Shown here in pieces: positions 5,202 through 11,245 of a stretch of 45,263 nt of DNA (position 1 is its first letter; each line of letters starts with the position of its first letter). A program made the position numbers and the translations under genes. Source of the stretch: Gemmatimonadota bacterium (lineage in GTDB: Bacteria; Gemmatimonadota; Gemmatimonadetes; Gemmatimonadales; GWC2-71-9); the NCBI GenBank assembly GCA_020351775.1, contig CP070666.1, positions 2,671,047 to 2,716,309 of the forward strand, in the 5' to 3' direction. Under the pieces are notes generated by a model. The model saw only the letters and a program-made list of their open reading frames with translations, had not been told where the DNA came from and did no database searches.

Positions 5202-6668
5202 ATGCTTTACCGATCCGCTTGTGTGACCGCGGTTTTCACGCTGGTGCTGACGATCGCCGCTTGCAGTCAGGACCGCCCACCTCCGGTCGACTGGCTCGAA
5301 CGCTGTGAGCTGGAGCGGATCGATGCAACCGCTTGGTGCGGTCAGTACTCGGTATTCGAGGATCGTGATGCGATGAGCGGACGCAAGATCAATCTCAAAG
5401 TGGTAGTGATTGCGGCTGCGTCGACCGATCCGGAGCCGGATCCGGTGTTCTACTTCGTGGGAGGCCCCGGTGCGGCTGCGACTGAATCGGCGGGCGGTGC
5501 CATGTTCGTCCTGCGGGACGTGCGGGACACCAGGGATATCGTGCTCGTCGACCAACGGGGAACCGGAAGCTCCAATCCGCTCGACTGCGACGGTGTCGTG
5601 ACAGACACGACATTGCAGCGCTTCTTCAGACAATTTCTGGAGCAGGATTTCGTCGAGGCCTGCCTGGACAAGCTGCGTCCTATTGCCAACGTGGCATTGT
5701 ACACCACGCCCGTCGCCATGGACGACGTCGATGAGATCCGTGAGGCACTGGGCTACGAGCGGATAAACGTGTATGGCGGCTCGTACGGGACCAGAGCCGC
5801 ACTGGTCTATCTGCGGCGCCACACGGACCATGTTCGGACGGCGGTGCTCAAGGGAGTTGCTCCAACGAACATGAAAAACCCGCTGCCCTTTGCGCGGGCG
5901 GCTGAGCGTGGGCTCCAGGGCGTGTTCCACGCGTGCGCCGTTGATCGAGAATGTCATGCGGCGTTTCCCGATCTCGAGGGCAATTGGCGCAAAGTGCTGC
6001 AGCAGTTCGAACCGGGATCGGTTGTGGCTCAGGTGACGCATCCAGAGACCGGTACAACCGAAACGGTTACGATTCCCCGCGGCGTGTTCATGGATGGGAT
6101 CCGTCACCTGCTGTACACGATGGGGCAGTCACGGCACGTACCCCGCATAATACATGCTGCGTCGCAAGGTGATTTCTCGCTATTCGCCCAGCATGAGATC
6201 GATCAGTCAATTGGGTTCGATAACATGCTGAGTGACGGGATGTTCATGACGGTGACCTGTTCGGAGGACTTGCGGTTCATCGACGAGCAGGAGATCCCAG
6301 CGGCGACGCAGGGGACGTATTTGGGCGATTATCGCGTGCGGCGTCAGCTGTCAGCATGTAGGTACTGGGATGCAGGAGAGGTGACTGAGAGTTACACGGA
6401 ACCCGTGCGGGTGGACACGCCGGTGCTACTCCTGTCAGGCGTGTATGACACGGCGACACCGTATGAGGGCGGCGATTGGGTGGCGCGGTACATGCCCAAC
6501 AGCCTGCACACCGTTGCACCGAACCAGAGTCACTCGTTTGCCAATCCGCCGTGCGAGCTGGCCCTCATTGCACGGTTCATCAGGAGCGGAACGGCTGCAG
6601 AGCTCGACGCGTCGTGTGTGCTGGAGACGAAGCGACCGCCGTTTGTGATCGGCGATGCCGTCCCTTGA
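5202..6668 (+). CDS. Secreted alpha/beta hydrolase, TAP-like (peptidase S33 type) lipoprotein
   Basis: 488-residue exported hydrolase resembling tripeptidyl/prolyl aminopeptidases of family S33. The N-terminus is a lipoprotein signal ending TIAAC, with Cys21 as the predicted lipid anchor. The oxyanion-hole motif is GGPG (87-90), followed by VDQRGTGSS. The nucleophile elbow is YGGSYG with Ser194, the acid is probably Asp416 in SGVYDTATP, and the base His444 in NQSHSF; the C-terminal part matches the TAP-like domain. GGAGG at 5191-5195 sits 6 nt before the ATG. Probable role is release of N-terminal residues from peptides in the envelope; actual substrate unknown. Confidence 0.9.
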   Translation: MLYRSACVTAVFTLVLTIAACSQDRPPPVDWLERCELERIDATAWCGQYSVFEDRDAMSGRKINLKVVVIAAASTDPEPDPVFYFVGGPGAAATESAGGAMFVLRDVRDTRDIVLVDQRGTGSSNPLDCDGVVTDTTLQRFFRQFLEQDFVEACLDKLRPIANVALYTTPVAMDDVDEIREALGYERINVYGGSYGTRAALVYLRRHTDHVRTAVLKGVAPTNMKNPLPFARAAERGLQGVFHACAVDRECHAAFPDLEGNWRKVLQQFEPGSVVAQVTHPETGTTETVTIPRGVFMDGIRHLLYTMGQSRHVPRIIHAASQGDFSLFAQHEIDQSIGFDNMLSDGMFMTVTCSEDLRFIDEQEIPAATQGTYLGDYRVRRQLSACRYWDAGEVTESYTEPVRVDTPVLLLSGVYDTATPYEGGDWVARYMPNSLHTVAPNQSHSFANPPCELALIARFIRSGTAAELDASCVLETKRPPFVIGDAVP

Positions 6669-8825: not shown

Positions 8826-9668
8826 ATGGAACTAGACGAACGTGGGCCGCTGGATCAGGAACTCGACGTGTTCGGGATGACCGACGTAGGCAAGGTGCGC
8901 AAGCGGAACGAGGACCATTTTCTGATTTGCTCGCTGCACAAGCTCATGCAAGTGCACAGCACCAGCCTGCCTAACCTCGACCAGCTGCCGTTGAGTGGCG
9001 AGCAGATGGCGTTTCTTGCCTTGGTTGCTGACGGTGTCGGTGGTCATGCGGGCGGCGATGTGGCCAGCCGCATGGCAACTGAGTCGGTCGCACGCTACAT
9101 CACGCGCAGCATGCAGTGCTATTACACGCGCGACCCCAATGAAGACGAATTCGTCGACCAACTGCACGATACGGTAATGCAATGTCATGTCGACCTGCTC
9201 GCCGAGGCGGCGAAGCGTCCGAAGCAAGGTGGCATGGCAACCACGCTCACCCTGTTCTTGGGCATCTGGCCGAGGGCGTTCATAGTCCAGGTCGGCGACA
9301 GCCGCTGCTATCAACTGCGCGGCGACAAGCTGAATCAGATAACTCGGGATCAGACGTTGTCCCAGGATCTGATCGATAGAGGTGTGCTCACCCCATCCAA
9401 GGCCGGAGCCTACGATCACGTGCTCTCGAGCGCCGTCGGTGGGTCGACTGCGGAACCGGTGATCTACAAGATGACTCTTGAGCGGGATGATGTGGTACTG
9501 CTCTGCAGTGACGGCCTCACAACTCACGTTACCGACGAGCAGATCCGCGACGGGCTGATTGCAATGGAGTCGTCCGAACAAGTATGCCGCAAGTTGGTCT
9601 CGATGGCGCTCGATCGGGGTGGGCGTGACAACATAACGGTTGTAATAGGACGCGCGAAGGCAACGTGA
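8826..9668 (+). CDS. PP2C-family Ser/Thr protein phosphatase
   Basis: 280-residue cytoplasmic, metal-dependent protein phosphatase (PPM/PP2C, Stp/PrpC-like). Conserved motifs are GKVRKRNEDHF near the N-terminus, ADGVGGHAGGDVAS (first metal Asp), QVGDSRCYQLR, RDQTLSQDLIDRG, LLCSDGLTTHVTD and GGRDNITVVI (C-terminal metal Asp and Asn). GGAG at 8817-8820 supports the ATG at 8826. Its stop overlaps the GTG of a membrane Ser/Thr kinase, so the two form a phosphatase-kinase pair that would oppose each other on shared substrates. The phosphatase looks intact although its partner kinase is interrupted. Confidence 0.95.
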   Translation: MELDERGPLDQELDVFGMTDVGKVRKRNEDHFLICSLHKLMQVHSTSLPNLDQLPLSGEQMAFLALVADGVGGHAGGDVASRMATESVARYITRSMQCYYTRDPNEDEFVDQLHDTVMQCHVDLLAEAAKRPKQGGMATTLTLFLGIWPRAFIVQVGDSRCYQLRGDKLNQITRDQTLSQDLIDRGVLTPSKAGAYDHVLSSAVGGSTAEPVIYKMTLERDDVVLLCSDGLTTHVTDEQIRDGLIAMESSEQVCRKLVSMALDRGGRDNITVVIGRAKAT

Positions 9669-11245
9669 ACCGCATGGCAGACCCAATCTCACTGCGGCCG
9701 CGAACCGAAGACGCGATTAGCCTGACCACTTCGCAGGCGGGTACGCGCCCGCGTCTGCCGGTGGATCTGCTCGATGCGGTGTCGCATCGATTGCAGTTCC
9801 TGTGCGTGATGCTGGCAGTCGCGATGGTGGCGGGCTCGGTCGTGACGGAATTGACGGACTTTGTCGAGAACAGGTTGGTGTACTACAGCACCGATGTGGG
9901 GGTGCTGCTCTGCTGCGCAACCGTATTCTACTTGGCGCGGAGTGGTAAGGTCTCGGCGACGCGGCTGCTCGACGTCGGATTGGGATTCGAAGTCATCGTA
10001 GCTGCTGCCATAGCGGTTTCCTTCGTGCCAGCGACGTACTTCGAGTCGACCAGGCCAGGTTTTGCCTGGTCCCCGGTCGCGGTATGGGTGGTGATATACC
10101 CAATCATAGTTCCCAACACGACGAAGCATACGCTGATCGCATCCGTAGCCGCATCCGCGACGGAACCGATAACGGTGCTGCTGATGTCAGAGGCAGGGTT
10201 TGGGGCGTTGCCGGCACTCAACGTGTTCCTGCGACAGGTCTGGCCCAACGTCGTGGCGATCGGCTTCGCCGTCATGATCTCCCGTGTCGTCTACGGCTTG
10301 GGCGAGAAGTTGCGCCAGGCGCGGGCGATGGGCAGCTACCAACTGGTCGAGTCGTTGGGCCATGGAGGCATGGGCGAGGTGTGGAGGGCGACCCACCGGA
10401 TGCTGGCTCGCGACGCCGCAGTAAAGCTGATTCATCCCGAGGTGCTCGGCGAGGTGGACGAAGACGGCGTGAGAATCATGCTACAGCGCTTCGAGCGCGA
10501 GGCGCAGGCAACAGCCGCATTGCGTTCGCCTCATACGATCGAACTGTATGACTTCGGGATTGCGCGAGACGGAACGTTTTACTACGTGATGTAGTTGTTG
10601 GGTGGGCTCGACCTGCAGACGATGGTGTACGACCACGGACCGCAGCCGCCCGAGCGGGTGGTGAAGCTGTTGCGGCAAGTGTGTCACTCACTCTTCGAGG
10701 CGCACCGCGGCGGGCTCGTGCACCGCGACATCAAACCCGCCAATATCTTCGTGTGCCGCTACGGAGTCGATCTCGATTTCGTCAAGGTGCTCGATTTCGG
10801 GATCGTGAAGCGGGCAGAGATCAAAGGCGTGAGCGATGCCCAGCTGACGCAGATGGGTGCGATTTCGGGCACACCTGCCTACATGGCGCCCGAGATGGCG
10901 TTGGGTGAAGGCAAGGTCGACGGTCGGGCCGACATCTATGCCTTGGGTTGCGTGGCCTACTGGATGTTGACCGCTCAGACGGTATTCGAGAAACCGAGCG
11001 CTCTGGGAATGATCGTGGCTCACACCCACGAGAAACCCATGCCGATATCCGAGCGCACTCAGCAGCCGGTACCGGAACCGCTGGAACGGATCGTCATGCA
11101 GTGCCTGGCCAAGCAGCCGGATGAGCGACCCGAGAACACACAGGAACTATCGCGCATGCTGAAGGAACTCGGCATCGAATCGGACTGGACCCTGGAGAGA
11201 GCCGGGCAGTGGTGGAGCGAGTACGAATCGAGAAACGCCGGCTGA
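9665..11245 (+). pseudogene. Membrane Ser/Thr protein kinase interrupted by an amber codon
   Basis: One kinase frame runs from GTG 9665 (overlapping the PP2C stop; GAAGG 5 nt upstream) to 11245, broken only by TAG at 10592-10594. N-terminal part (309 aa): about six membrane helices between residues 45 and 210, then the kinase N-lobe with a glycine loop LGHGGMGEVW (231-240) and the ATP-binding Lys254. C-terminal part: HRDIKPANIF, LDFGIVKR, GTPAYMAPE, and a normal C-lobe ending near 11245. The stop falls in the hinge, where the family reads YYVMELL; GAG to TAG is a single-base change. No frameshift is needed. Other genes here end in TAG, so it is not a sense codon. It is either a fresh pseudogene, a readthrough gene or a sequencing error. 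The kinase domain follows the membrane domain, the reverse of PknB. Confidence 0.88.

Follow-up and report, generated by a model that had tools for sequence, protein, structure and literature searches.

Organization of the interrupted kinase gene

The window, a 45,263-nucleotide stretch of DNA, is part of a single record of 5.51 Mb with a completeness of 93.5%. It carries a gene for a membrane Ser/Thr kinase that is interrupted by one in-frame TAG and lies directly behind a gene for a PP2C-type phosphatase. The features are as follows.

8826..9668, + strand: PP2C-type phosphatase gene, intact (Pfam PP2C_2, E 2.1e-13; same-genus orthologue in the same place, 75% identical)
9665..11245, + strand: membrane Ser/Thr kinase gene broken by the TAG, 526 codons with the stop included
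9665..10591, + strand: readable product, the membrane part, hydrophobic over about residues 35-214, and the kinase N-lobe (hydropathy, motif positions, Pfam match 225-298)
10592..10594, + strand: in-frame TAG where the hinge Glu is expected (frame reading, orthologue codon, family alignment, PknB alignment)
10595..11245, + strand: remainder beyond the stop, the kinase C-lobe with HRD (10721-10744), DFG (10790-10804) and APE (10883-10897) (Pfam, motif positions)

The kinase frame opens with a GTG at 9665 and runs for 309 codons up to the TAG, then for another 216 from there to the TGA that ends at 11245. Its N-terminal part contains several hydrophobic stretches, located by hydropathy at about residues 35-214. 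With the stop read as X, the Pfam Pkinase profile (PF00069) matches residues 225-494 over profile positions 1-257 of 263 (E 1.3e-37) and scores 130.1 bits against a curated cut-off of 31.7, as a full domain should, whereas the readable N-terminal part alone reaches 22.4 bits and falls below that cut-off. Taken separately, the two halves cover profile positions 1-67 and 84-257 of 263, the C-terminal half with E 9.3e-27. Both the frame reading and the Pfam match across the stop thus bear out the claim of an earlier note on this DNA, that a TAG at 10592-10594 cuts a continuous membrane kinase frame of 526 codons.

The same note placed the stop at the Glu of the kinase hinge, and the alignment agrees: residue 310, the stop, falls on the Glu of the VME motif of PknB, which we take to be the hinge between the two lobes. 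Its statement that the catalytic residues all lie beyond the stop is wrong, as the glycine loop (residues 231-239), the invariant catalytic Lys 254 and the alphaC Glu 279 precede it, and of the catalytic motifs only HRD, DFG and APE follow. The DNA holds the full set of catalytic Lys, alphaC Glu, HRD, DFG and APE, split by the TAG.

The PP2C frame is complete, as had been noted, and overlaps the start of the kinase by GTGA. We also examined the loci of kinase homologues for such a neighbour, using this PP2C as query. After removal of four duplicates and three paralogues from the same genome, 105 loci were considered, of which 14 in minus orientation and 11 with too little upstream sequence could not be evaluated. 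A PP2C homologue at most 600 bases upstream was found in one of the 80 evaluable loci (L006), and PP2C pairing was rejected as a general mark of this group of kinases.

The interrupted codon in relatives

The best orthologue of the kinase, 79% identical, is found in CP070792.1, a Gemmatimonadota metagenome-assembled genome (MAG) of the same genus, and the matching sequence is contained in a locus of the same-genus genome G001. It aligns with the window kinase without gaps over 428 codons, after which an assembly gap follows, and it has GAG at the position of the stop codon. The TAG therefore differs by one base from the codon of the orthologue, as proposed earlier from the window alone. With the frame open on both sides of the stop and gapless against the orthologue, a frameshift or a wrongly chosen frame was rejected.

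Among 112 homologous loci (108 distinct sequences, as there are four duplicate pairs), this codon encodes Glu in 107 (72 GAG, 35 GAA), Ala in two, Pro in two and Gly in one, and is a stop in none. Premature stops do occur elsewhere in the genes of relatives: locus L065 has two (likewise its duplicate, L107), L061 has one, and L071 has one near the end. In L065, a kinase homologue of a Gemmatimonadetes MAG (PLCA01000015.1, 5001-6539), the tblastn alignment appears to be frame-shifted between the two internal stops.

Constraint on both sides of the stop

We compared the window with its orthologue using our own script for the NG86 method; as synonymous sites are saturated (pS 0.63-0.75), the resulting dN/dS values are rough. 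They are 0.076 for the membrane part of the kinase, 0.034 for the N-lobe and 0.10 for the sequence after the stop, where the comparison with the sole known close orthologue spans 117 codons owing to its assembly gap at codon 428. Rough values for neighbouring genes are 0.077 (PP2C), 0.111 (dehydrogenase) and 0.118 (metallophosphoesterase), and for the gene at 5202 dS lies beyond correction. Either early relaxation or normal variation among domains could account for the higher value past the stop.

The proteins of window and orthologue differ at 89 positions over 427 codons; at 36 of these the residue of the window suits the family profile less well, and at 53 better. By region the numbers are small: seven worse and six better in the N-lobe, 12 worse and 10 better after the stop. 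At columns of the kinase domain that are more than 90% conserved, the window deviates once (437), within the region hidden by the gap in the orthologue. The profile comparison thus gives no sign of decay in the sequence, with the small numbers kept in mind. A search of the kinase frame for a second lesion found none on either side of the stop, and neither dN/dS against the orthologue nor the family profile revealed the relaxed constraint or further lesions that would mark a pseudogene. With no second lesion and no drift, an old pseudogene was rejected. From the lack of decay on both sides it follows that the stop arose very recently, is polymorphic or is an error of the consensus.

Kinase repertoire and the assembly

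The genome to which the window belongs has 103 Pkinase matches in 5.5 Mb, two of which contain an internal stop. The second (L208, G000:C1:1282352-1283119) has a lone TAA just upstream of its alphaC Glu, in the stretch ERFH*EI; paralogues that are 92% and 91% identical to it carry CAA at this position, one base away. This is sporadic nonsense and not recoding. The kinases of this genome include closely related paralogues that share 84-92% identity, and the second interrupted kinase is among them. None of 47 ABC_tran matches in the same genome contains a stop; the difference between 2/103 and 0/47 is too small to mean anything. No stop was seen among the matches listed for G001 and G015 (166 Pkinase matches together), and G002 has one internal TAG among the matches listed in a related search of 21 genomes. 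A literature search on CP070792, or on Gemmatimonadota protein kinases and pseudogenes, found no paper.

Runs of exactly 100 N are frequent both in this genome (73 in 720 kb sampled) and in G001, likewise a single record (65 in 392 kb sampled), which indicates that the two are gap-joined assemblies and that, with so many runs, gene order across the joins is unreliable in either. The window itself contains no N. We infer that the genome of the window is also a MAG.

Recoding of the stop

Release factor 1 (RF1) is encoded in the genome (491.5 bits, above the cut-off). A tRNA search found 34 loci above its threshold, and relaxing the threshold added three weaker hits. None of the 34, whose anticodons were read with ARAGORN, has a CTA anticodon, and PylS had no match in the genome; given the gaps in the assembly, neither absence is absolute. 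tRNA-Glu and tRNA-Trp are also missing from the 34 loci, and a tRNA-Glu pattern matched nothing; perhaps both were lost in assembly gaps.

We further scanned 765 kb of the genome (the window and 36 other stretches) for in-frame stops with 80 or more open codons to each side, and ranked them by codon composition. The scan returned 729 stops, among which the kinase TAG ranked second by coding score. Pfam was then run on 20 of the top 22 sites, that is, on the kinase TAG and 19 others, with all three types of stop represented. The kinase TAG is the only one of these 20 seen to break a Pfam domain, which with its rank makes it more than a chance occurrence; at none of the other 19 was one domain seen to extend across the stop, though four of them (L153, L165, L170, L184) matched no family. 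TAG within many genes, as amber recoding would produce, was thus not seen at these 20 sites from 765 kb. On the presence of RF1, the lack of a CTA tRNA among the 34 loci and of a PylS match, and the negative scan of 20 sites, a change of genetic code or a suppressor tRNA was rejected.

Explanations for the stop

The explanation that we hold with high confidence is a recent single-base change that put a nonsense codon at the hinge of a PknB-like membrane kinase paired with a PP2C, be it a fixed null allele, a variant in part of the population or an error of the consensus. A change from GAG to TAG would have struck the hinge codon of one of about 100 redundant kinases. Translated as written, the gene would yield a membrane stub with the N-lobe only and, because the catalytic loop and the DFG motif are lost, this stub would be catalytically dead and incapable of phosphotransfer. 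As the TAG precedes HRD and DFG, it constitutes an inactivating lesion of the kind expected in a pseudogene, with loss of activity predicted.

Within this explanation, we give somewhat less than an even chance to a true and fixed young pseudogene of the strain, which would leave the phosphatase without its kinase. The stop is confirmed in the assembly, kinase redundancy in the genome is high and another kinase is likewise broken by a single stop; against this, the frame has no second lesion. A consensus error, or a minority strain variant taken up by the assembly, is also plausible at just under even probability. It is consistent with a single-base change and no decay, with a gap-joined assembly (and a same-genus genome that is a MAG), and with the second interrupted kinase, whose close paralogues could have been mixed in assembly. 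However, the window has no N, and the ABC-transporter domain matches, none of which has a stop, argue that stops are not widely scattered in the genome. As reads are needed to choose between the fixed pseudogene and the strain or assembly variant, the two are inseparable on the assembly. Both had been put forward in the earlier note and stand; its third option, programmed readthrough, is unsupported, as nothing specific in the sequence speaks in its favour.

Some full-length kinase would be supplied if readthrough were programmed or tolerated, or if the stop were naturally suppressed. Frame and constraint carry on beyond the stop, and conserved sequence there is equally expected under tolerated readthrough; moreover, a survey of bacterial in-frame stops (PMC7918605) argues that in many of them dN/dS stays below 1 and that these are not pseudogenes. 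However, the stop is conserved in no relative, RF1 is present without a CTA tRNA or PylS, and the other interrupted kinase has a different stop, TAA; we consider this reading very unlikely. Even less probable, in our view, is a leaky hinge TAG that the cell tolerates and that would reduce the amount of membrane kinase against that of the coupled PP2C phosphatase, most of the product being a membrane-anchored N-lobe stub and a little of it full-length kinase. Least probable of all is a two-piece kinase, in which translation would restart after the stop and the C-lobe, made on its own, would pair with the N-lobe at the membrane: TTG codons directly follow the stop and an ATG lies at 10622, but no clear ribosome-binding site was seen by eye before these starts, and none of the 112 homologous loci shares the stop.

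We regard the kinase TAG as one young or doubtful nonsense allele, of little importance alone. It shows that a kinase-rich Gemmatimonadota genome can hold single-stop kinases, and that reads must back up such sites of gap-joined assemblies before they are called pseudogenes or recoding.

Comparison with known systems

The window kinase resembles PknB-like Hanks-type kinases (PF00069), as its residues 219-496 align to PknB (E 2.3e-48) and every motif is present once the stop is counted as a residue. It differs in that the gene is broken at the hinge codon, and also in layout: in PknB the membrane part follows the kinase domain, whereas here it precedes it. The kinase TAG also resembles the sporadic in-frame stops of bacteria in the survey cited above (PMC7918605), being a lone stop that a one-base change separates from the sense codon in the relative, within a gene under purifying selection; the stops kept in that survey, however, are common to at least two species, whereas the kinase TAG is seen in one genome only.
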